In this document: positions 2,871-18,183 of the stretch, in pieces
Layout: each line of letters starts with the position of its first letter
Position numbering within the stretch: position 1 is the first letter of the stretch
Assembly: GCA_027063305.1 (NCBI GenBank)
Contig: JAMORY010000020.1
Span: forward strand, 1 to 46,803
Source: Sulfurovum sp.
GTDB lineage: Bacteria > Campylobacterota > Campylobacteria > Campylobacterales > Sulfurovaceae
DNA length: 46,803 nucleotides
Direction: 5' to 3'
Program-made: the position numbers and the translations under genes
The notes under the pieces: generated by a model
What the model was told of the DNA's origin: nothing
Seen by the model: only the letters and a program-made list of their open reading frames with translations
The model's database searches: none

Positions 2871-4474
2871 TCGTTAAAAAAATAGCTGCCAAAAAAGGCA
2901 CGGGATCCTTTAGTGGACTGGCAAATTATATATTGGACAAATCTAACGGTGGAGCAAAAGCAGAAGAGATTGTATGTTCAAACTGCCCCTATGATGATGT
3001 GGAGGAAAATATAGCTTTTATCAAGTCTATGCAAGATCTCAACCAAAGAACAACGCGGGATAAAACACTGCATCTGGTTGTATCATTTCCAGAGGGGGAA
3101 AAGCCTACCAAAGAACAACTTCAAGATATTGAGCAAGAGCTACTTAAAAGTATAGGCATGTCAGAACACCCCAGGCTAAGTGTTACACATACTAATACTG
3201 CAAACTATCATCTACACATTGCCGTGAGCCACATAGATCCTGTTACACTCAACCGCATTGATCCTCATAGAGATATCCCAAAGCTTCACAAAAAGGCGGA
3301 AGAACTTGAAGAGAAGCACGGACTCATACGAGACAATCATACACCAAATGATCTACTGGCAAAAGCAGGGCTCATATTTGACCCAAAACAACATACAAAA
3401 TCAAAAGATATAGAAATCCACTCTGGCGTATCCTCCCTACTCTCATGGATCAAAGAGGAAGCCTTAAACGACATCAAAGAGATACTCAAAGATCCTAAAT
3501 CATCCCTGCACGATTTACACCAGGTATTAGCAGATTACAATCTGGAGCTAAAACCTAGAGGTAACGGCATTGTTATTGCAGATAAGACAAGGAAGCTATT
3601 TGTAAAAGCTAGTGATGTTCACAGAGACTTATCCAAAGGTAAGCTTACTAAGAGGTTTGGAGAGTTCAAAACCTCTAAAATTACTACCACACCAAAAAAG
3701 AAATTTGGCAGACCAGTAAATGAGTATTGGAAACGATACCAGGAACTATCTACACAGAAGAGATCCACCAAAATAGAAGAGTTACGACTTGAAAAGTTAG
3801 CAAGAGAGACACTTAGAAAACAGATCAAAGAGAAATATACAGCACAGATCCAAAAGATTAAAGTAGATCCTCTTATCAATAAACGACACAAAGCCCAAGC
3901 ACAGAAAAAAGTTCGCGAACAGCGTAAGGCAGAATTGGCAGCACTTACCAAGACATTTAGTGAAAAGCGTAACGAGATCTACTCCAGTACAAAACAGACA
4001 TCTTACAAAGAGTACCTTATGGAATTGGCACTCTCTGGAGATGAGGGAGCCTTAAAAGAACTCCGAAAACAAAAACAAGAGATCAAGCCAGATGATAAGG
4101 TACTTATGCACCCTAAGAAAAAAGTATCACACTCCATCTTTAAGAGCTTCATATCCAAGATTACCAAACAGGGTAATGCAGTTTATGAAGTAGGTAAAAA
4201 TTCAACTGTAACGGATAAGGGAGATCATCTTAAACTCTCTTTGGAATCCAAGAGTGATGAGGCAATGCTACAAGCCCTTAAAATGGCAGTAGCCAAGTAT
4301 GGTAATACTTTGGATATTCAAGGCAATATTGAATTTAAAAAGCGTGTACTCATGGTAACGCAAAAATACGATCTAAAAGTGAACTTTGCAGATCCACAGA
4401 TGCAGAAGATTAAGAGTGAGATGACAGCAAGTACCTCACATCAAATTACAAATAAACAAACTATCAATAAATAA
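2867..4474 (+). CDS. MOBP-family relaxase with C-terminal LPD7-like domain
   Basis: This 535-residue relaxase would nick the element's oriT and pilot the single strand into a recipient using another element's type IV secretion system. The N-terminal 160 residues hold the family motifs: Tyr21 in ANYILDK, a likely nucleophile, and the metal-binding HLHIAVSHID (residues 115-124), plus LHLVVSF before it. Residues 220-360 are highly charged and probably helical. Residues 425-515 (VTDKGDHLKL, then MAVAKYG, KRVLMVT and VNFADP) resemble the LPD7 domain found at the end of many relaxases. It starts inside the mobC stop by four bases. The absence of a coupling protein or secretion genes nearby marks this as a mobilizable element, not a self-transmissible one. 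Confidence 0.9.
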   Translation: MIVKKIAAKKGTGSFSGLANYILDKSNGGAKAEEIVCSNCPYDDVEENIAFIKSMQDLNQRTTRDKTLHLVVSFPEGEKPTKEQLQDIEQELLKSIGMSEHPRLSVTHTNTANYHLHIAVSHIDPVTLNRIDPHRDIPKLHKKAEELEEKHGLIRDNHTPNDLLAKAGLIFDPKQHTKSKDIEIHSGVSSLLSWIKEEALNDIKEILKDPKSSLHDLHQVLADYNLELKPRGNGIVIADKTRKLFVKASDVHRDLSKGKLTKRFGEFKTSKITTTPKKKFGRPVNEYWKRYQELSTQKRSTKIEELRLEKLARETLRKQIKEKYTAQIQKIKVDPLINKRHKAQAQKKVREQRKAELAALTKTFSEKRNEIYSSTKQTSYKEYLMELALSGDEGALKELRKQKQEIKPDDKVLMHPKKKVSHSIFKSFISKITKQGNAVYEVGKNSTVTDKGDHLKLSLESKSDEAMLQALKMAVAKYGNTLDIQGNIEFKKRVLMVTQKYDLKVNFADPQMQKIKSEMTASTSHQITNKQTINK

Positions 4475-7587: not shown

Positions 7588-9216
7588 TTGTATAAAGTAG
7601 CGGATTTTTTTTGTGGTGGAGGTGGGTTCTCTGAAGGATTTAAATTAGCAGGTTTTAAAATAGTTTTTGCAATAGATAAATGGCAACCTGCCGTAACAAC
7701 CCATGAAGCCAATCATCCAAAAGCCCATACATACCTTGGTGATGTCATTACAATATCAAACCTACCTGATGATGAGTTTCATAAACTTGTACCGGATACC
7801 GAAGTAATCATCGGATCACCTCCCTGCACTTCTTTTTCAAATTCTAATAGATCAGGGAAAGCAGATAAATCACTGGGTATCCAGCTAATTGAAGCATACT
7901 TGAAAATCGTTGCAAGAAAACTTCTTAAAGAAAACTCAATTTTAAAATATTGGGTATTAGAAAATGTCCCAAATGTAGTTTCTTATATTCAAGATTCCTA
8001 TAGCTATAGAGAGCTAGGTATAGAACATGATGGAACCCTACAAGTCAAATATCCATCCTCTAAGGTCTATAATGCAAAATACTTTGGTGTTGCTTCAAAT
8101 CGTAAAAGATATTTTTGTGGTAATTTTCCAGAACCAGAACCATTGATCACTGAAGATAAAGATACTATTTCAGTTAATGAAATATTGAGAAACCTCAAAG
8201 AACCTAATCATAATTTAAATACAAGGATCATAGATCCGAATTATACTGATTTCAGTATGCTATCCAAGGATATAACCGATCATCATTATATTGTAGAAGT
8301 GGCACAGTTTGAATGGGAAAAAGCAAAAAGACATAAACAAGATAAAGGTTACATGGGGAAAATGGCTTTTCCTGAAGATCTGAGTAAACCATCTAGAACC
8401 ATTATGGCAACCATGTCAGCATGTTCTCGTGAATCAATTATCTACCCATATATTCCGGAAGAAAAGAGATATCGATTGCCTACAGTTAGAGAAATAGCAT
8501 GTATCATGAGCTATCCTTTGGATTATAGATTTTATGGACAAAGCAAAGGCATTAAATATAAACTTGTAGGAAACTCTGTACCACCAAAAATGTCTTTTGC
8601 CATAGCAAGAGCAATAGCTATGAATGATGGCTTATCCACACCAAAGACATATACCCCTATAACATTTATTGACGATAAGCCAAACAAGTTCATAAATTTA
8701 AATTTCAGAGATTTTCCATTAAATAAAGAAAAACCAAAAAGAGAAAATGCTAAATTTAAATATCATATTCCGTATTTGAAAATTAATACATATAGGGTAG
8801 AACTAAGCAATAAATATTTAGACGATACAAATTTAAAAATTGAATGGGTAGTTGAGATACATAAGAGTCAAGGTCCAAAAGCAACAAAAACCATACCAGA
8901 TATAAATATGAAAGACATAGCAAAGGAAGATCAACTTAATATTGATAAATTTGTGAAAACAATGAAGTCTAAATTACCACATGCAAATAAATTTCAAAAA
9001 TATTATTGTATGACGGGTGAAGAACGAAAACAAAAAAATTTGATCGGTCCATATGAATTATTATCAGAGATACGAACCTTTATTGATGATAAGCTTGATT
9101 TAAATGATCAAAGAACTATTTTGTATAATACAGAGAGGTTCCCTTATCCAATCTATATTGGCTATATTATTTTGAAAAAGTTAACTATGCATATCAACAA
9201 AAAGGTCTTACCGTGA
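7588..9216 (+). CDS. DNA (cytosine-5) methyltransferase with C-terminal extension
   Basis: This 542-residue enzyme would transfer a methyl group from SAM to C5 of cytosine in a defined site. The canonical motifs appear in order: I (FFCGGGGFSEGF, residues 7-18), IV with nucleophile Cys80 (GSPPC), VI (ENV, 125-127), VIII (NRKRYF, 171-176) and X (GNSVPP, about 328-333). The target-recognition region lies about 180-290. Residues 345-542 are an extra C-terminal domain not found in Dcm-like enzymes and carry no motif I know. The start is TTG 7588, supported by GAGGGGA seven bases upstream. The stop overlaps the next gene by four bases. The sequence specificity cannot be read. Confidence 0.95.
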   Translation: MYKVADFFCGGGGFSEGFKLAGFKIVFAIDKWQPAVTTHEANHPKAHTYLGDVITISNLPDDEFHKLVPDTEVIIGSPPCTSFSNSNRSGKADKSLGIQLIEAYLKIVARKLLKENSILKYWVLENVPNVVSYIQDSYSYRELGIEHDGTLQVKYPSSKVYNAKYFGVASNRKRYFCGNFPEPEPLITEDKDTISVNEILRNLKEPNHNLNTRIIDPNYTDFSMLSKDITDHHYIVEVAQFEWEKAKRHKQDKGYMGKMAFPEDLSKPSRTIMATMSACSRESIIYPYIPEEKRYRLPTVREIACIMSYPLDYRFYGQSKGIKYKLVGNSVPPKMSFAIARAIAMNDGLSTPKTYTPITFIDDKPNKFINLNFRDFPLNKEKPKRENAKFKYHIPYLKINTYRVELSNKYLDDTNLKIEWVVEIHKSQGPKATKTIPDINMKDIAKEDQLNIDKFVKTMKSKLPHANKFQKYYCMTGEERKQKNLIGPYELLSEIRTFIDDKLDLNDQRTILYNTERFPYPIYIGYIILKKLTMHINKKVLP

Positions 9217-10565
9217 ACAAGGAAACAAGAATACAAAAAATATCTGAAATACTAAAGCAAGAACCATATGCTCAAAAAGAGATAATGTGGCAAGATAATT
9301 TAGAAGTAATGCCCGTATATAAAATTCCTTTAAAATATTTATTATACAACAAATACAATGGTCGTATTTTAAGCCGAACACAATCTCTTGAAGCCCAAGG
9401 TAAAGATCTTGACCCCGAAAATGAGAATGATAAAAAAATCATTGAAAAGCTTTTATGGGACTCGAAACCGGATAGAAATAAAAACACACTCTCAGATCTT
9501 GAAGCACATGGACAAAAAGAAATAGGAATAATTACAAGAGATGGAATTATCATTGATGGTAACCGTCGTGCAATGCTTCTTAATAAAATCGATAAGTATG
9601 ATTATTTTAAAGCAGTTATCTTACCAGTTACCTTAGAGCAAAATCCAATAGAAATAGAAAAACTTGAAACCTCATATCAAATGGGGGCAGACGAAAAGCT
9701 TGGATATAATCCAATAGAGAAATATATAAAGGCAAAAAATCTTGCAAAAAAAGGTATAACTACAAAAGAGATATCTGATTGGATGGGAGAGACTGAATCA
9801 ACTATTAAAGATTACCTTTCAGTAATGAAAACCATGGATGATTACTTAGATTATCTTCAATACAATGGAATATATACACAACTTGATGGAAGAGAAGATC
9901 AATTTATCAATCTTACAAAATGGTTAAATACATTCTATAATGGCAGTGCAAAAGGTTTTGATGGATATAAAGAAGATGATGTCGCTGATTTGCAAGCAAT
10001 AGGGTATGACTATATCCGTATCAAGTATGAAGGAAAAAAATTCCGACAACTTGCATACGGGCTAAAAGAGAGACATATTTTTGGGAATAAAGAAGTTTGG
10101 CAAAGTTTTAGCGATAAACACTTTGAATTCATCAGTCCAATAATTGATGAAGAGGGCAAGCCTAATCTTGATACCAATAATATTGAAGCAACACTTAATG
10201 CTCGAGATGAAGCCTTTAAAACAAAAACTGAAAAGTTTCTTGATGATAATTTAGATGAACACTATACTCAAATTAGATATAAACAATCTCAAAATGAACC
10301 CAAAAAATTAGTAAGAAATGCTACTCGTGCTATTCAATCAATCAATACAAAAAATCTTTCAAAACCAGAAGTTATAGAAGAACTATCCGAATTACGAGAT
10401 GAGATAAGCAGTATCATTCAAGACAGATCCCAAGAAAAAGCACTAGAACACGTTTTAGAGCAATTATCCAAGATTGAAATCACTGATATTAAAGACACTG
10501 ATTTTGCTGATGAGTATCTAAAACAAATCAATAAATTATCATTTGAACTCAGAAAAAGTTTGTAA
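9213..10565 (+). CDS. ParB-like nuclease/CTPase-fold protein of the defence operon
   Basis: This 450-residue protein carries a ParB/sulfiredoxin-fold signature: IPLKYLLYN, then a region leading to GIIIDGNRRAMLL (DGNRR at about 114-118), the nucleotide-binding box of the superfamily. A helix-turn-helix-like stretch follows (TTKEISDWMGETESTIKDYL, about 190-210), as in ParB. The C-terminal 150 residues are charged and helical (EVIEELSELRDEISSI). ParB proteins use CTP or act as nucleases; which applies here is unknown. It overlaps the methyltransferase gene by four bases and precedes the helicase gene by six bases, so it is a component of the same system. A chromosome-segregation role is unlikely given the context. 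Confidence 0.8.
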   Translation: MNKETRIQKISEILKQEPYAQKEIMWQDNLEVMPVYKIPLKYLLYNKYNGRILSRTQSLEAQGKDLDPENENDKKIIEKLLWDSKPDRNKNTLSDLEAHGQKEIGIITRDGIIIDGNRRAMLLNKIDKYDYFKAVILPVTLEQNPIEIEKLETSYQMGADEKLGYNPIEKYIKAKNLAKKGITTKEISDWMGETESTIKDYLSVMKTMDDYLDYLQYNGIYTQLDGREDQFINLTKWLNTFYNGSAKGFDGYKEDDVADLQAIGYDYIRIKYEGKKFRQLAYGLKERHIFGNKEVWQSFSDKHFEFISPIIDEEGKPNLDTNNIEATLNARDEAFKTKTEKFLDDNLDEHYTQIRYKQSQNEPKKLVRNATRAIQSINTKNLSKPEVIEELSELRDEISSIIQDRSQEKALEHVLEQLSKIEITDIKDTDFADEYLKQINKLSFELRKSL

Positions 10566-10571
10566 CTCAAG

Positions 10572-12548
10572 ATGAAGATAAATATTGATATTGTAGAAAA
10601 TACATTTGTCCTAACAGGGGATATTGATACTATTTTGAGTAAAAGGAGAGCCCTACTTTCTTTTAAAAGACTTTCGTATAAACATACAGATAGTAGATTA
10701 GTTATACCCTACAATGAAAATACAAAAATACATACTCTCCAAACCATAGAACGCATTTTAAATAAATTCCATATCGACATAAATTTAGGTGAAGCAACAA
10801 AGCAAGAGCTTATTTCATATGATAGAGAGCAAGTGAATTTTACTATTTTTTCAGAAAAAGCAAAAAAAATACGGAATAATGAATTCAGTAGCGAACTAGA
10901 TATTGTTGAAGATTTTAAAGACTTCAAAAAGACAATACATCAAAAGATATCAAGAACACTTTACCCTTTACAACTTTTGTCATCCTTCCATATGGCATTT
11001 GCACAAAATAGTTGCAATTTTGCAGTGCCAGGAGCAGGGAAAACAACAATAGTATATGGAGCATACACTTATCTCAAAAATCTTCCCAAAAATAATCCAA
11101 AACATGTAGACAAAATATTGGTTATTGGTCCCTTATCTTCATTTGCCCCCTGGGAAAATGAATACGAAGCATGTTTTGGTACAAAAGTCTCTTCTCAAAG
11201 AATGTCAGGAGATATTTCTATTACTAGAATTCAAAAAGAACAACATTTATATTCTGATAAACCCAAAGAGCTAACATTGATCTCTCATGCAGGAGTTCCA
11301 TTACTGGAAAAAGAGATTATCGATTTTTTAAAAAAGAATAAGGTCATGGTCGTTGTTGATGAGGCACATAGAATAAAAAATGCTGAAGGAATCTGGGGGC
11401 AAAGTGTAGTAGAGATAGCAAAAGAAGCTACTGCAAGAGTAATTCTAACAGGTACTCCTCTACCCAATGGCTATGAAGATATCTATAATCTATATAGATT
11501 CATCTATCCATTTAAATATCAGGATATCTTACAAATAAACTATGATCAATTAAAAGAAATGACCAAAAACATGGTGTCTCCAGATAGCGAAAGGATAAAA
11601 AGTTTCACTAAAAATATCAGTCCTTATTTCATTAGAATCAAAAAAAATGATCTTGGGCTTCCTAATCCCATCGAACACTTAATCAAAGTTGATATGGATG
11701 AACATCAACGATCAGTTTATGACTTTATTGAAGAAAAATATATAAATTCATTTAAACATAACTCAGGGGGCACCATAAAAGATGTTCTCAATAAAGCAAA
11801 ATTGATAAGACTTCGACAAGCTTCAACAAATCCCTCTTTGCTTCTAAAGCCCCTACAAGACTCTTTGGAGCACTCTAGTGAGATAGGAGACTATGATCCA
11901 AATTATAGATTTGCAGAAATTGACAATGAAAGTATTGATGATGTAGAAATTTTTCAAAAAATAATTAATTATGAAAAATTATATATTCCTCAAAAGTTCA
12001 TTAAAATAGAGGAATTATTATCAAATAAAATATTTTTAGAAGGTGGAAAAGCTATTATTTGGACGATCTTCATACAAAATGCTGAGCAATTACAAAATTA
12101 TTTAAAACAAAAAGATATTAATTCAAAATTATTGATAGGGCGTATTCCTCAAGATGAAAGGGAGGAGATAATTGAAAAATTTAATGACCCAAGCAATAAT
12201 GAATTTCAAGTAGTTATCGCAAATCCTTTTTCTGTTTCAGAGTCTATCTCTCTTCATAAAGGCTGCCACAATGCAATATATCTTGAAAGAGATTACAATG
12301 CCGCCAGTTTTATACAGTCGAGGGATCGGATACATCGTGTAGGTTTACCTGAACATACAGATACACACTACTATTATTTTGTTTCAACAAAAAGTATTGA
12401 TACGGTAATAGACCGAAAATTGAATGAAAAAGTTAAAAGAATGGAAAAGATTATAGATGAAGAAATTCCTCTCTTTAGACGAATCAATGATTCTGATGAA
12501 ACAGACATTATTAAAACACTGTTAGAAGATTATGCTCAAAGAACTTAA
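10572..12548 (+). CDS. SNF2-type superfamily 2 helicase/translocase
   Basis: This 658-residue ATPase has both RecA-like lobes. Lobe 1 shows a Walker A box PGAGKTT (residues 153-159), DEAH at about 264 (VVVDEAHRIKN) and LTGTPLPN. Lobe 2 shows KAIIWTIF, the NPFSVSESISLHKG region and the motif VI QSRDRIHRVG (about 580-590), characteristic of the SNF2/Rad54 group. The Walker A reads VPGAGKTT instead of the usual GLGKT of classic SNF2 proteins. The N-terminal 120 residues are a separate domain that may recognise DNA. It probably translocates on DNA to drive cleavage by the nuclease next to it. It follows the ParB-like gene by six bases and overlaps the nuclease gene by 17. Confidence 0.9.
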   Translation: MKINIDIVENTFVLTGDIDTILSKRRALLSFKRLSYKHTDSRLVIPYNENTKIHTLQTIERILNKFHIDINLGEATKQELISYDREQVNFTIFSEKAKKIRNNEFSSELDIVEDFKDFKKTIHQKISRTLYPLQLLSSFHMAFAQNSCNFAVPGAGKTTIVYGAYTYLKNLPKNNPKHVDKILVIGPLSSFAPWENEYEACFGTKVSSQRMSGDISITRIQKEQHLYSDKPKELTLISHAGVPLLEKEIIDFLKKNKVMVVVDEAHRIKNAEGIWGQSVVEIAKEATARVILTGTPLPNGYEDIYNLYRFIYPFKYQDILQINYDQLKEMTKNMVSPDSERIKSFTKNISPYFIRIKKNDLGLPNPIEHLIKVDMDEHQRSVYDFIEEKYINSFKHNSGGTIKDVLNKAKLIRLRQASTNPSLLLKPLQDSLEHSSEIGDYDPNYRFAEIDNESIDDVEIFQKIINYEKLYIPQKFIKIEELLSNKIFLEGGKAIIWTIFIQNAEQLQNYLKQKDINSKLLIGRIPQDEREEIIEKFNDPSNNEFQVVIANPFSVSESISLHKGCHNAIYLERDYNAASFIQSRDRIHRVGLPEHTDTHYYYFVSTKSIDTVIDRKLNEKVKRMEKIIDEEIPLFRRINDSDETDIIKTLLEDYAQRT

Positions 12549-13488
12549 ACAATATGAGAATCTAGGTACACCAAAATATTTTTGGGAGTTCTTTCGACTT
12601 TTTAAAGATGGTAGTTCATGGACAGGGGAAACTGTAAGTGAACACTTTTTTAATAAGATTATTGATGATAAAATGATATTTGATGGATGTATCCCATTAT
12701 TGCTGCATACTGGTATTATTTCATTTGATACAGATCAACAAATACTTATTAGTACGGAATACCGTAATATCACTCGTTCAGAAGGATTTTGTCAACAAAA
12801 ACTTTTAGAAGGATTTTTAAATGCATTTCAAAAAGATGAAGAATTCATAACAATTTTTAAAGATACCCACTATGACTACTTATCATCTAAATCAATAGTC
12901 ATAAATAGATCTGCTTTTGGACTGCCATATTCAAATTTACGTAAACTTTTACAAGCATTTGATTTTTTACGCCCTCACCCTACCATCAATAATACTTATA
13001 TTATAAATCCTAGAAAGAAAAAATATTTTGAAGAAAAAATAGTTCCAAAAATAAGAAAAATAATGGGGATCGAAGAACTAAAAAAACAATTAAAACAACA
13101 AGAACTCAATGGAGAAGAAGCAGAAAAATATGTATTATCCTATGAGAAGTCTCGCTTAAATGGGAAAGACGGGATAGAGTGGATAGCTCCCTATGATTCA
13201 GCTGCAGGATTTGATATCCTATCATATCATGATCAGGATGACGATGAAAATAATCGTTTTATCGAAGTTAAGTCATATACAGGAATCAAACCATATTTTT
13301 ATTGGACAAAAAATGAAATGAAAAAAGCAAAAGATAGAGGGTATGATTATGCTATATATCTTGTATGCAGAGAAAGAATGAATGATGATACATATCATCC
13401 AATTATCATTCATGATCCATTTTCAAATATTTTAGAAAGTGAAGAATGGGCTAAAGAAATTGATAAATATTATATTACGTCCCTTTAA
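12532..13488 (+). CDS. DUF3883 (PD-(D/E)XK-like) restriction nuclease candidate
   Basis: This 318-residue protein ends in a DUF3883-type nuclease-like domain (about residues 195-318): LNGEEAEKYVLSYEKSRL, then GFDILSYH and RFIEVKSYTG. The Asp of FDILS and the Glu-x-Lys of EVKS (about 244-246) match the PD-(D/E)XK active site, as does the upstream Glu. The first 190 residues form a winged-helix-rich region of unknown role (SNLRKLLQAFDFLR). It is the last gene of the operon and its start overlaps the helicase gene by 17 bases. It is the best candidate for the cutting subunit. Its TAA and the TAA of the convergent amidoligase gene overlap at TTAA 13485-13488. Confidence 0.8.
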   Translation: MLKELKQYENLGTPKYFWEFFRLFKDGSSWTGETVSEHFFNKIIDDKMIFDGCIPLLLHTGIISFDTDQQILISTEYRNITRSEGFCQQKLLEGFLNAFQKDEEFITIFKDTHYDYLSSKSIVINRSAFGLPYSNLRKLLQAFDFLRPHPTINNTYIINPRKKKYFEEKIVPKIRKIMGIEELKKQLKQQELNGEEAEKYVLSYEKSRLNGKDGIEWIAPYDSAAGFDILSYHDQDDDENNRFIEVKSYTGIKPYFYWTKNEMKKAKDRGYDYAIYLVCRERMNDDTYHPIIIHDPFSNILESEEWAKEIDKYYITSL

Positions 13489-14321
13489 CTATCTAATATA
13501 CCAGCTTCAATAAGAGCCGAAGCAAATCTGCCTTTGGCTTCTTTATCCATGCTATCTAGCATCTGCTTATGATTCTCCAGTAATCTTTTATGCTCTGGAG
13601 TCACCACTCCTAAAACCTGAATAAAATAATCAGCATATATTTCAAACTCTCTCTTAAGTCGTTCTGTTTCTTTGTGGTAATCAGCTCCACCGATAGATTT
13701 GATCTCAATATGATGAGGATCAATTCTCTCCAGGTTCCAGATGGTACCTTTTTTGGTTTTAATGATCCTTGCTTCCTGTTTTGTATGAGAAGATAGGATA
13801 TCCATTACATTTTGAGAATATCCAATCCTTGGCTTCCATGCAGAGAGCAAACCTGCATCATCACACAGGAGCATAAAACGGTAAAAATCTATATGACTGC
13901 TGCCAAGAGTACTTATATGGATATGGAAACCTGTCTCTTCATTGGTATAGCCATATTGTTCTATTAGAGGCAGGATCATTTGAATATAATGCAAGATCCC
14001 TTCTTTGGTAGAGATAGGGACAGATATCTCCACTCCGTGATCTTCCAGTGAGATGTCTGGCTTGATCTGCATGCAGTGGTTTTTATCTGCTGCATGAGGG
14101 ATGGATATCTCATCTACCAGGATATCTGCCGAAGTAAGTTCATAAAGAGCTTTTGTCAGAGTACCAATCACATCTGCGTAGAGGTACTGTTCTGTGTCTA
14201 TATAAAACTCAAATTCACATCCATAACGACAAAGATCATTCTCTTTGGGCTTAAAACTTGGATATTTGCAACTACTATTCCCTTGGTAGCGTTTTGTTGT
14301 TCCCTCTAAAATGTACTGCAT
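13485..14321 (-). CDS. Amidoligase (glutamine-synthetase-like fold)
   Basis: This 278-residue protein matches the amidoligase (COOH-NH2 ligase) family, which joins a carboxylate to an amine with ATP, often tagging proteins or making peptides. The key residues are seen: E36 and E38 in GCEFEFYID, VEIS (97-100), the HIH pair in GFHIHIS (132-137), and IEIKSIGG (205-212) for the Glu-Lys-Ser metal/ATP site. The product and substrate are unknown. It is the downstream gene of a two-gene unit, its start sharing one base with the stop of the cyclotransferase gene (TAATG). This pairing of amidoligase and cyclotransferase was described as a recurrent neighbourhood by Iyer, Aravind and colleagues. Confidence 0.85.
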   Translation of the reverse strand: MQYILEGTTKRYQGNSSCKYPSFKPKENDLCRYGCEFEFYIDTEQYLYADVIGTLTKALYELTSADILVDEISIPHAADKNHCMQIKPDISLEDHGVEISVPISTKEGILHYIQMILPLIEQYGYTNEETGFHIHISTLGSSHIDFYRFMLLCDDAGLLSAWKPRIGYSQNVMDILSSHTKQEARIIKTKKGTIWNLERIDPHHIEIKSIGGADYHKETERLKREFEIYADYFIQVLGVVTPEHKRLLENHKQMLDSMDKEAKGRFASALIEAGILDS

Positions 14322-14932
14322 TATGCCCCTATTGCAGTCTCAAGATAATCCTCAAGCTGCTTCACCTTATGATTGGTATCTGATTTCCACTCTCTAAGAG
14401 GTTTTTGCCCTTTGGGTATAGCAGTATGAGGCTGAATATATACAAATGCTCTTACTGTGCCTCTATGCGTCTTTACAAGGATCTTTTTTCTCTCGTAGTA
14501 ATCTGGATACCCCTCAAACCTGTCAAGCTTCTCTAAAAGCTCTTTTCGGTGTATTTCATAGAGTTCTCCATGTATCCTCATCTGTGGTACAGGGATCAAA
14601 TAAGGATAGTTCCCAAAGCTATCTTCAAACATCCCAAATTTACTTAGAGTAATAGCCTTACCAACCCTTTTGGCATGTTTACCTAACAGGTGATGGTTGT
14701 CAAATCCTTTTTTGAGGGATCCGTAAACAAAAAGCATCTCTCTAAAAGGCTCAATCCGTTTGAACTCTCCTCTTCCGGTAATCGTAATGATTCCTTTGTC
14801 ATGGAGACGATGCAGTATCTTTCTAAGCGTATCCGTTGAAATATCTTTTGTCTTTACCCTGGAAAAAGGCACTATAGTATTTATAGAAAGTCTGTTTATT
14901 TTTCGTTCGATCTTCTCTATGTACTTATTCAT
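14321..14932 (-). CDS. Winged-helix/gamma-glutamylcyclotransferase (AIG2-like) fusion
   Basis: This 203-residue protein joins an N-terminal winged helix (about residues 1-62, TDTLRKILHRLHDKGIIT, then the GRGEFKRI wing) to a gamma-glutamylcyclotransferase domain: FVYGSLKKGF (68-77), then GELYEI and LDRFEGYP (136-143), with the catalytic Glu probably in that region. Such enzymes remove gamma-glutamyl groups as 5-oxoproline, so it may reverse or trim the amidoligase product, while the winged helix suggests DNA-binding self-regulation. The winged-helix module resembles antitoxin domains of the AbiEi/DUF6088 type. ATG 14932 is chosen because AAAGGAG lies eight bases upstream; a longer frame would extend into the promoter. 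Confidence 0.8.
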   Translation of the reverse strand: MNKYIEKIERKINRLSINTIVPFSRVKTKDISTDTLRKILHRLHDKGIITITGRGEFKRIEPFREMLFVYGSLKKGFDNHHLLGKHAKRVGKAITLSKFGMFEDSFGNYPYLIPVPQMRIHGELYEIHRKELLEKLDRFEGYPDYYERKKILVKTHRGTVRAFVYIQPHTAIPKGQKPLREWKSDTNHKVKQLEDYLETAIGA

Positions 14933-14950
14933 AGTGCTTTCTCCTTTATA

Positions 14951-14997
14951 ATATCGTGACAATATTATAGCATTTTTTTATATTTTTGTCACGATAT
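14951..14997 (-). promoter_or_regulatory. Promoter and palindromic operator of the amidoligase module
   Basis: On the minus strand GTGACA (complement of 14987-14992) and TATAAT (complement of 14964-14969) are 17 bp apart, a near-consensus sigma-70 promoter. ATATCGTGAC (14951-14960) and GTCACGATAT (14988-14997) are perfect inverted repeats: one overlaps the -35, the other lies just after the -10. A repressor bridging them would block the promoter. The winged helix of the first gene product is the natural candidate; binding is not shown. Confidence 0.75.
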
Positions 14998-15124
14998 ATT
15001 TTAGAATGGAATTGTAAAGCTGCAAAAGCCTGTTTTTTTCATGATACATCAAAGAAGTGTTACTTTTCGTAAAAAAGCTAAAAAAGAGCCTCTTCTTTTT
15101 TTCATAGCAGTGCATATTTTTCTC

Positions 15125-15172
15125 TGTCAACTGTTGTCAAACTATGTCAATTCATACTTTTTGACTTTTGAC
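15125..15172. repeat. TGTCAA repeat cluster
   Basis: TGTCAA occurs at 15125, 15135 and 15145 with an exact 10-bp period, followed by inverted TTGAC at 15161 and 15168. The third unit is part of the 13-bp motif also found at 377-389. Helical phasing suggests protein binding, for example an integrase or excisionase arm array, or iterons of a replication or partition protein. Confidence 0.45.
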
Positions 15173-15295
15173 AAATAACGATCTTTGGAGAATAATCTTA
15201 GTAATGATTTTTCGTGTGATTTTCAATAATACGGAAGAAGTAGCAAGCCAAAGATGCCCTGAATTGATACCTCAATCATCTTTGACTTACGTTGA

Positions 15296-15322
15296 AAGAA
15301 GTATAGCAAAAAAATACTTCTT
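15296..15322. repeat. Nine-pair hairpin in the right-end non-coding stretch
   Basis: AAGAAGTAT (15296-15304) and ATACTTCTT (15314-15322) can form a perfect hairpin. It lies about 60 bp before the structured stretch and may end or begin transcription; no T-tract follows. Nothing else is recognisable in 15000-15124 or 15173-15378. Confidence 0.3.
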
Positions 15323-15384
15323 AATCAACACCTTGTCACTGTTAAGCTCTACTTCATCAAATTCCAAAAAAATTACATAACACC

Positions 15385-15720
15385 CTCCGGGGGTTCAGCC
15401 TTATCCGGATCTAAGTCAAAGATATGATCCGGGCTGGCATTGTGAGCGTGAAAGCGTTCTAGAGTTGATAGCACATATGCCGTGTTTTCAGCCGAGTCTA
15501 TCAGGGGACTCTTTTGGGTTACCAGAATGTAATAGCTTAACACAGATTGAAATGCATCCCATCAAAAAGCCGACTCAAGACCTCTCAAGAGGCGAAAGCC
15601 CTCTCTAATCAATCCGGAACACCTGAACTAAGAGACCTGCAAAGGATAAGGAGTTGTATATCAGCTATCAATCGATATGCATCTGATGATAACCGACATG
15701 TGACGGATCGTTAATCAGTG
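15385..15720 (+). ncRNA. Candidate structured RNA, unknown class
   Basis: This 336-bp stretch has no credible reading frame and is visibly richer in G and C than the surrounding AT-rich element. It folds readily on paper. GGCTG (15432) pairs with CAGCC (15489), enclosing GGCAT/ATGCC, TGTG/CACA and a GAGCG/CGTTC hairpin. GAGTC/GACTC (near 15494 and 15506) follows, then a GGCGAAAGCC tetraloop hairpin near 15591. TCCGGAT (15404) can pair with ATCCGGA (15612) across the domain. A strong 12-bp hairpin at 15723 would end it. It resembles neither tmRNA, RNase P, SRP RNA nor a group II intron. Orientation and ends are guesses. Confidence 0.45.
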
Positions 15721-15722
15721 TT

Positions 15723-15752
15723 TTGAGCCCTATGATTTTTCATAGGGCTCAA
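15723..15752. terminator. 12-bp perfect hairpin after the structured stretch
   Basis: TTGAGCCCTATG (15723-15734) and its exact complement (15741-15752) flank an ATTTTT loop. The stem is strong, but T residues precede it and none follow, so it may be a terminator of unusual type or part of the RNA fold. Confidence 0.5.
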
Positions 15753-15795
15753 GTGCTCTTCAAATTTCGCTCGATGCTCTGGATTGTACTTTGGT

Positions 15796-15813
15796 GTGGG
15801 GAATATGTGGGGA
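15796..15813. promoter_or_regulatory. Candidate right arm-type integrase site
   Basis: GTGGGGAATATGTGGGGA repeats GTGGGG with an 11-bp period and matches 419-436 at 15 of 18 positions, about 75 bp inside attR. See the left copy; function is inferred from position. Confidence 0.45.
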
Positions 15814-15882
15814 GAACGAGAATAGTAAAATAGCTTAAATGCTCTCAAGTTACGCTGTGTTGGGACTTAGTTTGGATTGTTT

Positions 15883-15909
15883 AAAATGGATGGCCGGGAG
15901 AGGGGGATT
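15883..15909. repeat. attR within the tRNA-Ser 3' end
   Basis: Positions 15889-15909 are identical to 257-277 and cover the CCA end, acceptor strand and part of the T-stem of tRNA-Ser. The crossover must lie inside this block. The tRNA is complete here because the element supplies the same 3' bases it displaces. Confidence 0.92.
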
Positions 15910-15978
15910 CGAACCCCCGGAGGTGTTACCCTCACCGGTTTTCAAGACCGGCACATTCGACCACTCTGACATCTCCCG
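15891..15978 (-). tRNA. tRNA-Ser(UGA)
   Basis: Read on the minus strand, this 88-nt cloverleaf has a CGGGAGA/TCTCCCG acceptor stem, a long variable arm as in all tRNA-Ser, a TGA anticodon in loop CTTGAAA, a GGTTCGAATCC T-loop region and an encoded CCA. It is the insertion site of the integrated element and the last of a four-tRNA unit. Confidence 0.96.
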
Positions 15979-16030
15979 ACAATAATAAGTAGAACGCAAT
16001 TTTACCGTAAAAAGATAAAATTAACATTTA

Positions 16031-16106
16031 TGGAGGAACCAGCCGGACTCGAACCGGCGAATAGCAGCTTTGCAGGCTGCGGCCTTACCAACTTGGCGAT
16101 GGTTCC
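16031..16106 (-). tRNA. tRNA-Cys(GCA)
   Basis: This 76-nt minus-strand cloverleaf has acceptor GGAACCA/TGGTTCC, anticodon GCA in loop CTGCAAA, T-loop GTTCGAGTC and encoded CCA. It is 13 nt upstream of tRNA-Leu in the sense of transcription order Gly-Leu-Cys-Ser. Confidence 0.96.
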
Positions 16107-16119
16107 AACAATACAAAGG

Positions 16120-16206
16120 TGGTACCCGGAGCCGGACTTGAACCGGCACGGTCGCAATGACCGGGGGATTTTAAGTCCCCTGTGTCTACCATTCCACCAC
16201 CCGGGC
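16120..16206 (-). tRNA. tRNA-Leu(UAA)
   Basis: This 87-nt minus-strand tRNA has a long variable arm, anticodon TAA in loop CTTAAAA, T-loop GTTCAAGTC and encoded CCA. Acceptor GCCCGGG pairs with TCCGGGT with G-U at both ends. It is second in the four-tRNA unit. Confidence 0.96.
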
Positions 16207-16297
16207 TTCATAGGTACCAAATATTTGTTAAATTCTAAAGAGCATCAAACATTTAAACGTCTGAGATTTTTTCTTAGGTAGTGTCTATTTTAAATAA

Positions 16298-16372
16298 TGG
16301 AGCGGGCGAACGGGATCGAACCGTCGACCCTCACCTTGGCAAGGTGATGCTCTACCGCTGAGCTACGCCCGC
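16298..16372 (-). tRNA. tRNA-Gly(GCC)
   Basis: This 75-nt minus-strand tRNA has acceptor GCGGGCG/CGCCCGC, anticodon GCC in loop TTGCCAA, T-loop GTTCGATCC and encoded CCA. It is the first gene of the Gly-Leu-Cys-Ser unit. Confidence 0.96.
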
Positions 16373-16416
16373 ATATCCATAACCAAATTCAAGCCAATGC
16401 TTAAAATTGGAGTGCG

Positions 16417-16422
16417 ATTATA
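16417..16422 (-). promoter_or_regulatory. -10 box of the four-tRNA unit
   Basis: The complement of 16417-16422 reads TATAAT, about 45 nt before the 5' end of tRNA-Gly and divergent from ilvD. No good -35 is visible, as is usual in this phylum. Confidence 0.55.
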
Positions 16423-16454
16423 ACCAATTTTTTTTTAAATGTAAATAGTATTTG

Positions 16455-16463
16455 TGATATAAT
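16455..16463 (+). promoter_or_regulatory. Extended -10 promoter of ilvD
   Basis: TGATATAAT (TG at 16455, TATAAT at 16458-16463) is an extended -10 box 28 bp before the ilvD start, preceded by a T-rich tract instead of a -35 box. Confidence 0.6.
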
Positions 16464-16491
16464 CTAAAAAATTACATAAAAAAGGCTCAAA

Positions 16492-18183
16492 ATGATGAGA
16501 AGTGATGAAATTAAACAAGGTTTTAACCGTGCACCTCACAGAAGTTTGCTTCGTGCTACCGGTGTCAAAGATGAAGATTTCAATAAACCCTTTATTGGTG
16601 TCGCCAACTCCTACATAGAGATCATTCCGGGGCATTTCTTCCTCAACAAAGTATCTGAGATCATTAAAGAGGAGATCAGAGCGAACGGATGTGTTCCTTT
16701 CGAGTTCAATACAATCGGTGTCGATGACGGGATTGCCATGGGACATGACGGGATGCTCTACTCTCTTCCCAGCCGTGAGATCATCGCAAACTCCATCGAA
16801 ACGGTCATGAATGCACATAAACTGGATGCAATGATCGCTATTCCTAACTGTGACAAGATCGTTCCAGGAATGATCATGGGAGCATTGCGTGTAGATGTGC
16901 CAACCGTATTTGTCTCGGGTGGACCAATGGCGGCAGGGCACCTCAAAGACGGTACGCCTATCGATCTTGCAACGGCATTTGAAGCGGTCGGACAGTATGA
17001 AGCGGGAGAGATCAACGAAGAGCAGTTGACAGAGATCGAGTGTAATGCCTGCCCAAGCGGCGGTTCATGTTCGGGAATGTTCACGGCAAACTCCATGAAC
17101 ACCCTTATGGAAGCGATGGGTATTGCCCTTCCGGGTAACGGGACGATCCTTGCATTGACACCAGAAAGAGAAGCACTCTACCGTAAAGCGGCCAGACGCA
17201 TTTGTGAGGTCGCCAAGGCCGATGCTGCCGAGCGTGAGAAGTTCAGACTAAGAAATATCTTGAATGAAAATGCCGTACGCAATGCTTTTGCAGTCGATAT
17301 GGCGATGGGAGGAAGTTCTAACACGGTACTTCATATGCTCGCCATCGCAAAAGAGGCAGATGTGGACTTCAACCTTAAAGATATCAATGCGATCAGCAAA
17401 CGCGTCTCTCACATTGCCAAGATCTCTCCGTCGCTAACCACTGTACATATGGAAGATATCAACAAAGCCGGTGGTGTCAGTGCGGTCATGCACGAGATGA
17501 GCAAACGTGGAGACGATATTCTCATCGATAATCCGACCATTACCGGAGAGAGCCTCTATGAGCGCATTAAAGATGCCAAAATCCTCGATACGGAGATCAT
17601 CCATACCATAGACAACCCTTACTCCGAAGTAGGCGGATTGGCAATTCTATACGGTAACCTTGCCCAGCAGGGTGCGGTGATCAAGACTGCAGGGATCACG
17701 GGAGATCGTGTCTTTACCGGTACGGCTGTCTGCTTTGATTCACAAGATGAAGCGATCGAAGGGATCATTAACGGTAAAGTTAAAGCTGGGAACGTTGTTG
17801 TGATCCGTTACGAAGGTCCAAAAGGCGGACCGGGTATGCAAGAGATGCTCTCTCCTACTTCACTCATTATGGGAATGGGTCTTGGCGATAAAGTAGCCCT
17901 TATTACTGACGGACGTTTCTCAGGGGCAACTAGAGGTGCAAGTATCGGTCATGTCAGTCCTGAAGCGGCAGAAGGTGGAATGATCGGACTGCTTAAAGAC
18001 GGGGATGAGATCCACATCGATGTAGACAATTACATTTTGGAGGTAAACCTTTCAGAAGAGGAGATCGCTCAACGTAAAGCGAACTTCACGCCACTTGTAA
18101 AACCACTGAAGAGCAGATGGCTCAGACAATACCGTGCACTTGTTACAAACGCCAGTAACGGTGCGGTACTTGAGGCTGAGTAA
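16492..18183 (+). CDS. ilvD: Dihydroxy-acid dehydratase
   Basis: This 563-residue cytosolic Fe-S enzyme dehydrates 2,3-dihydroxy acids to the 2-keto acids of valine, leucine and isoleucine. The family boxes are clear: [18 protein letters not shown] with a cluster Cys (about residue 122), [12 protein letters not shown] with further cluster cysteines, and near the end [12 protein letters not shown]. Length agrees with the family. The first two codons are both ATG (16492 and 16495), either of which could serve; the ribosome site is weak (AAAGGCTC). It stands alone with its own extended -10 promoter, divergent from the tRNA unit. Confidence 0.97.

Follow-up and report, generated by a model that had tools for sequence, protein, structure and literature searches.

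The closest described counterpart of the locus analysed here is abiE of Streptococcus agalactiae, a type IV toxin-antitoxin system whose operator, as given in the available parts of two reports (PMC3985639; PMC7319586), reads TGTTGCTTTTA-N27-TAAAAGCAACA, extends to a 23-3-23 arrangement and covers the -35, -10 and +1 positions of a promoter with a 17-bp spacer. According to these excerpts, the antitoxin AbiEi binds each half-site and represses its own operon. Binding is described there as non-cooperative and the C-terminal domain of AbiEi as needed for repression (PMC3985639), and later work cited in PMC7319586 describes two monomers, positive cooperativity and DNA bending. In Mycobacterium tuberculosis, the AbiEi-like winged-helix antitoxin of the Rv2827c-Rv2826c pair likewise acts on 23-bp inverted repeats overlapping the promoter, differing in that the accessible text reports four repeats with 13-bp gaps within pairs, negative cooperativity and a nucleotidyltransferase partner (PMC7319586). 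With respect to the enzymes encoded, phage gene sets in which an amidoligase and a gamma-glutamyl cyclotransferase are adjacent bring together the same two enzyme classes as the present locus and are proposed, in the portions available, to alter peptidoglycan (PMC5498523; PMC11945000). These sets additionally include genes for ATP-grasp enzymes and for amidotransferases or aminohydrolases, and the same portions mention no fused winged helix (PMC5498523; PMC11945000), while the accessible part of another paper proposes a role in nitrogen metabolism for such phage genes.

The locus is located on the minus strand of a 46,803-nt stretch of Sulfurovum sp. DNA (GenBank assembly GCA_027063305.1, contig JAMORY010000020.1, positions 1-46,803; hereafter the window). 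From the sequence and a repeat search, two perfect inverted 12-nt copies are evident, ATATCGTGACAA at 14951-14962 and TTGTCACGATAT at 14986-14997, which exceeds the 10 nt quoted in the original prediction of a perfect inverted repeat at this site; at an arm length of 19 nt, 89% of the positions are complementary. Reading along the minus strand, the resulting 47-bp putative operator (14951-14997) consists of the upstream arm (14986-14997), 23 bp and the downstream arm (14951-14962), followed by a probable ribosome-binding site recognised by eye (AAAGGAG, 14941-14947) and the ATG at 14932. A promoter search places a -35 hexamer GTGACA (14987-14992) within the upstream arm and a -10 hexamer TATAAT (14964-14969), preceded by the TG of an extended -10, immediately before the other arm, with a spacer of 17 nt and 11 of 12 matches to the consensus. 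The 12-nt downstream arm begins 1 bp past the -10, its 10-nt core TGTCACGATA 2 bp past it. Hence, the predicted arrangement, with one arm over the -35, the other past the -10 and 17-bp promoter spacing, is borne out in all three respects. Since transcription is expected to start about 7 bp after the -10, the downstream arm covers the expected start site as well. An Rfam scan of 14900-16500 gave only tRNAs above the cut-offs, with no RNA element at the operator.

The first gene downstream (14321-14932, minus strand) encodes a 203-aa protein, the proposed autorepressor, in which open reading frame, Pfam, AbiEi profiles and a structural model concur on an N-terminal winged helix (residues 1-62; 14747-14932) and a C-terminal gamma-glutamylamine cyclotransferase-like (GGACT) domain (residues 67-182; 14387-14734; PF06094, E 8.8e-25) bearing YGSLK at residues 70-74 and a conserved E140. 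The model, with a mean pLDDT of 86.5, combines a winged helix at residues 1-62 with a GGACT fold, so that the domain originally proposed for these residues is found by both prediction of structure and AbiEi profiles. Residues 3-58 match AbiEi with an E of 1.2e-4, a moderate value, and the match ends at residue 58. At E up to 1 and with moderate scores, 19 of 21 homologues are matched by the PADLOC AbiEi profile PDLC02226 (best 5e-6) and 16 of 21 by PDLC02235. The structural matches listed for the winged helix are winged helices of other families at Z of about 7-9. AbiEi chains are absent both from the PDB matches listed for the model and from a sequence comparison of residues 1-62 with the PDB, neither of which excludes kinship. 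In the putative recognition helix, R37 and LHRLH (residues 40-44) are invariant in all 21 homologues.

The assignment of the C-terminal domain is supported by superposition of model residues 62-189 on mouse GGACT (1vkb; Z 16.8, rmsd 2.0, 125 residues) and of residues 64-193 on human GGACT (3jub; Z 16.5). Fold, YGSLK motif and aligned glutamate are common to these enzymes and the window protein, whereas the matched GGACT chains, with 144-161 residues, leave no room for the winged helix present here. E140 falls where the alignment pairs the window protein with LDDFE of 1vkb, and the PDB matches include the E82Q entry of human GGACT (3jud), which suggests that E82 is catalytic in the human enzyme; partly from the alignment with 1vkb and partly from general knowledge of the family, we take E140 to be the counterpart of this residue. 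As YGSLK and E140 are conserved in 21 of 21 aligned homologues, the GGACT enzyme is likely active. In every one of these homologues, DNA-binding and enzyme domains reside on one chain.

The second gene (13485-14321, minus strand) starts within the stop codon of the first (TAATG), with a one-base overlap, and encodes a 278-aa protein classified by model and alignment as a glutamine-synthetase-fold amidoligase. The match of the window protein to Amidoligase_2 (PF12224) is weak, at 12.2 bits (E 0.16) against a curated cut-off of 22 bits; of the homologues, 6 of 15 give a hit with E no higher than 1, the best being 0.0027, and a divergent relative at locus L138 reaches 19.4 bits. The model (pLDDT 83.1, poor at residues 179-194) superimposes on glutamine synthetase 4bax with Z 11.2 and rmsd 3.5 over 172 residues. 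Foldseek ranks the YbdK ligase and glutamine synthetases first, albeit with low TM values (0.31-0.42 of query) and large whole-chain rmsd. All 15 amidoligase homologues aligned share the motifs GCEFEF, HxHxS, NxE and ExK without change; L002, L017, L018, L020, L021, L024 and L025 were left out of this alignment as interrupted, cut or not resolved. AbiEii profiles gave no match to the second gene product with an E of 1 or below.

After dinucleotide shuffling of the 200 bp preceding the gene, a perfect 12-nt inverted repeat with a gap of 3-40 bp was present in only 10 of 5000 sequences. When the whole window was shuffled (n = 60), a mean of 0.2 such repeats was obtained, and 9 of the 60 shuffles had at least one with at least four G/C per arm; one repeat somewhere in the window would hence be unremarkable, while one placed in the promoter at 14951-14997 is remarkable. 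The only other perfect 12-nt repeat of this type in the real window is a hairpin at 15723-15752 (TTGAGCCCTATG-ATTTTT-CATAGGGCTCAA), which lies in non-coding DNA between the cassette and a cluster of four tRNA genes. The exact pattern TCGTGACA-N18-26-TGTCACGA (8-nt arms) has a single site, 14951-14997, in the 2.03-Mb, 34-contig host genome. A regulon beyond the operon was rejected, as the exact operator pattern occurs only once in the host genome and single arms with up to two mismatches are found in the window at chance level (16 versus 14.34 expected).

Comparison of relatives is the stronger test. It comprised 21 promoters, those of the window and of 20 loci with upstream DNA, and did not include L013, where the contig starts inside the gene, or L003, which shows 23% identity and is devoid of the winged-helix gene. 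L001, L004, L027, L095 and L130 represent the window itself, while L005 and L093 duplicate L007, L006 and L094 duplicate L015, L124 duplicates L008 and L128 duplicates L018; L143, L123 and later genus loci are places already included, except for pieces from genomes G499 and G527, and L138 and L142 entered neither the protein nor the amidoligase alignment. Of the 21 promoters, 20 have CGTGACA in the upstream arm (which is degenerate in L012), 19 have GTCACG in the downstream arm (one-base change in L021 and L026) and 20 have TATAAT, L026 having TACAAT. The distance from the -10 to the downstream 10-nt core amounts to 2 bp throughout (21/21), and the span of the 10-nt cores shifts together with the promoter spacer, being 45 bp in the 13 loci with a 17-bp spacer and 46 bp in the 8 loci where the spacer is 18 bp. 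Pairwise identity averages 0.30 over the 60 bp upstream, as opposed to 0.84 and 0.87 in the arms and 0.98 in the -10, indicating that the operator moves with the gene. Between the upstream arm and the -10, TTTATA-like bases that belong to neither hexamer are also conserved and mirror the downstream half, with one column being T in 21 of 21 sequences; each half-site is therefore probably at least 17-19 bp, longer than the 12-nt arm. Outside the 21, both arms are present in L096 and L142. Judged by this sequence evidence, the operator's inverted repeat is not due to chance.

One relative departs from the pattern. In L138, whose gene pair is about 41% identical, TATCGTGACA is found at the -35, no downstream arm is seen and ATG follows 8 nt after the -10, so two half-sites would not always be needed. 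This divergent pair (L138:1843-3272) is suggestive of a leaderless transcript with a one-site operator. At L140:2011-2667, a GGACT domain is carried on a different N-terminal region near a gene for a MobA/VirD2-type relaxase; no operator was seen by eye in the stretch examined and no amidoligase match was obtained in the 5-kb stretch. In L007, a close relative (about 4200-4330, by eye), the operator directly adjoins DNA matching window positions of about 15770-15850, which in the window lie some 800 bp farther upstream near the tRNA cluster; the intervening segment consequently differs by insertion or deletion. Scanning IMG/VR with ATCGTGAC-N26-30-GTCACGAT returned 35 contigs, which look like chance hits as the DNA examined gave no HMM match to winged helix, GGACT domain or amidoligase. 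Alignment-based viral scans yielded no new locus, only the contig of L002 again.

In its layout, the cassette closely parallels abiE, as far as the excerpts cited above describe the latter. Both are two-gene units with the winged-helix gene first, both have arms over the -35, the -10 and the +1 position (in the cassette, the expected one) and both have a 17-bp spacer; the perfect arms are 11-N27-11 over 49 bp in abiE and 12-N23-12 over 47 bp here. The N-terminal winged helices of AbiEi and the cassette protein belong to the same profile family, with moderate scores. In contrast, the operator sequences differ, the AbiEi C-terminal domain (COG5340) is absent, with GGACT in its place at residues 67-182, and the AbiEii (DUF1814) nucleotidyltransferase toxin is missing, the second gene being the amidoligase. 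A plain AbiE system was therefore rejected, C-terminal domain and second gene belonging to other families. At the level of sequence, the cassette combines AbiE-like control with a different pair of enzymes.

AbiE operons from the same order (L063-L071) also have, by eye, inverted repeats around the -10, with sequences of their own; that of L065, AAATCTAGAAAA/TTTTCTAGATTT, goes with a different recognition helix. An automatic repeat test (pairs of at least 11/12, span of at least 29 bp) flagged 5 of 27 loci (L065, L070, L072, L075 and L081), with spans shorter than that of the window operator. A shared architecture with differing letters would be expected of separate repressor-operator pairs. 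AbiEi-like winged helices are also found on 153-166-aa proteins of other make-up (L079, L080, L083-L085, L087 and L091), and in L080, L083, L084 and L091 a second open frame overlaps the 3' end of the AbiEi-like gene; further fusions of the AbiEi domain may exist.

Taken together, the inverted repeat is very probably an operator through which the winged helix-GGACT protein encoded downstream represses its own operon, a reading well supported by the comparison. One protein would bind each half-site, taken as roughly 19-23 bp, and the bound protein would cover the -35, the -10 and the start site. By occlusion of the promoter, perhaps with bending, transcription of both genes, which are expected to share one transcript, would be turned off. 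Of the repression scheme proposed originally, by looping or as a dimer through the downstream winged helix, the repressor part gains support from an operator that travels with the winged-helix gene and resembles the AbiEi autorepression operator in layout. The looping part finds no support: both sites lie within one 47-bp, promoter-sized segment, each overlapping promoter or expected start-site DNA, so that occlusion, possibly with bending, suffices and looping is unlikely. As for a dimer, AbiEi, the closest model, is reported to bind as two monomers, and by analogy with the S. agalactiae system two monomers may be seated side by side here. The fusion of the winged helix to an enzyme domain and its pairing with an amidoligase gene go beyond the original prediction. 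Counting against autorepression are the degenerate upstream arm of L012, the one-base changes in the downstream cores of L021 and L026, the single half-site of L138, the moderate AbiEi profile match, the lack of AbiEi chains among the PDB sequence matches of the winged helix and the replacement by GGACT of the C-terminal domain that, in the available account, AbiEi needs for repression.

Alternatively, a true operator could be bound by another, host-encoded regulator, which would accommodate the moderate likeness of the cassette protein to AbiEi and the putative status of its binding; this is nevertheless very unlikely, because the site moves with the cassette across genera, plasmid and viral contig with differing flanks and is unique, in its exact form, within the host genome. 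It is hardly conceivable that the symmetry arises merely from the promoter sequence or as a palindrome by chance: GTGACA and TATAAT are promoter elements conserved anyway, in an A+T-rich region, but conserved bases extend outside the hexamers, the geometry is fixed in 21 of 21 promoters, one arm is downstream of the -10 and a repeat of this kind turned up in only 10 of the 5000 shuffles.

Homologues were found on a viral IMG/VR contig (L002), on two Aliarcobacter butzleri plasmids (L026 stemming from one of them) and at 19 genome-contig loci, which by title are assigned to genera or families of Campylobacterota except for one Flavobacteriaceae bin. A match to the winged helix-GGACT protein is present in all of 26 loci but the distant L003. 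Gene order is constant in the loci that have both genes, and the genes overlap or nearly abut in loci with both ends read. In the class, the amidoligase occurs in 3 of 397 genomes (E up to 1e-5), i.e., the cassette is rare; the first protein is matched in 28 of these 397 (E up to 1e-10), with only 5 below 1e-50 and the others being GGACT-level matches. Within the genus, the first protein or part of it is found in 8 of 78 genomes (E up to 1e-25) and the amidoligase or part of it in 7 of 78 (E up to 1e-10). By these comparisons, the gene pair forms a cassette of patchy distribution that is found mainly in Campylobacterota. One annotated homologue record names only a 'gamma-glutamylcyclotransferase family protein' and a 'hypothetical protein'. 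Scanning 30 of 60 flanking proteins revealed a mixture of housekeeping, integrase, transposase and defence functions, several proteins without match and no common neighbour partner. Among the defence-type neighbours are a Tmn-like protein near L019 and AbiEii upstream of L024.

Regarding the purpose of the operon, we tentatively favour a defence pair or one resembling a toxin-antitoxin system, with the amidoligase forming a gamma-glutamyl amide bond that GGACT would reverse. It is more doubtful whether this would amount to an undescribed toxin-antitoxin-like class with attack and antidote as opposite chemical steps and operon expression set by the antidote. In such a scheme, the amidoligase would attach an amine or peptide to the gamma-glutamyl group of a cell target and the cyclotransferase would remove the adduct as 5-oxoproline; with a DNA-binding domain on the antidote enzyme, amount or state of the substrate could set expression via the AbiE-like operator.

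The order in which the genes are lost is weakly in line with this, as a ligase that burdens the cell in the absence of its partner would be expected to be broken or lost before the first gene. The amidoligase is split in L018 and L024 by inserts that bear transposases, read as IS3-like and IS21-like, while the frame of the first gene is whole; in L017, the amidoligase frame ends after 190 residues, near the contig end, and in L096 the amidoligase is gone, the first gene's frame being open to residue 198 with ATA as start codon. A complete amidoligase gene without the first gene was not seen among the loci examined. Against the pattern count a second, intact pair in the L018 genome; genome G499, which has only the C-terminal half of the ligase and no first gene, and G527, with an 88-residue ligase piece at a contig edge; and G560, where a GGACT fragment is broken, and G219, where GGACT sits on another N-terminus, both of which are without ligase. 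Moreover, it is biased by most loci having been found via the ligase itself and by the ligase being the longer target.

Instead of an antidote, the GGACT domain could be an enzyme-fused sensor, i.e., a substrate-responsive switch in a regulated metabolic or stress pathway, where binding to GGACT of gamma-glutamyl products of the amidoligase, or of some other amine conjugate, would release the operator. BirA and PutA are enzyme and repressor at once, and both domains on one chain in 21 of 21 homologues, conservation of YGSLK and E140, constant gene order and overlapping or nearly abutting genes would fit this role, which is likewise compatible with the operator reading. However, the role of a ligand is conjecture, and rarity (3 of 397 class genomes) and varying neighbours are unlike a core pathway, leaving this alternative to the toxin-antitoxin pair rather unlikely. 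Less likely still is a cell-wall modification or superinfection-exclusion cassette resembling the phage sets under its own repressor. For this speak a match of the GGACT domain to the phage family phrog_2520 (E 8.6e-26), a homologous pair on the IMG/VR contig (L002) and the pairing of amidoligases with gamma-glutamyl cyclotransferase in phage sets with a proposed peptidoglycan role, as far as the available portions tell. Conversely, the amidoligase has no match in PHROG families (E up to 0.01) or phage records (E up to 1e-5), the scan of 30 of the 60 flanking proteins gave no ATP-grasp or amidotransferase family, and the accessible part of the other paper favours nitrogen metabolism for such phage genes.

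AbiEi-style control is known, while the GGACT fusion and the pairing with an amidoligase are new. The combination of winged helix-GGACT protein and amidoligase was not found in the literature searched, as far as its accessible parts go; an earlier survey of amidoligase neighbourhoods might describe it. An AbiEi-like control unit, consisting of winged helix and paired inverted-repeat operator, would be used outside AbiE and be coupled to kinds of enzymes that make and break amide bonds, and the tight, conserved geometry of the operator offers a ready assay for a poorly annotated family. Should the ligase turn out to be toxic and the cyclotransferase to protect against it, this would be a toxin-antitoxin principle not found in the literature searched.

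Upstream of the cassette in L024, an AbiEii-type nucleotidyltransferase gene (L024:423-1136) adjoins an integrase-like fragment recognised by eye, and no AbiEi-type gene was recognised among the frames listed beside it. In the window, a likely defence island at 7588-13488 adjoins the cassette. It encodes a C5-cytosine methylase, a protein of 450 aa that weakly matches ParB/HTH, an SNF2 helicase that is hit by ZorD/DrmD profiles and a NO VEIN C-terminal (NOV_C) protein matching TmtA/PD-T4-1.
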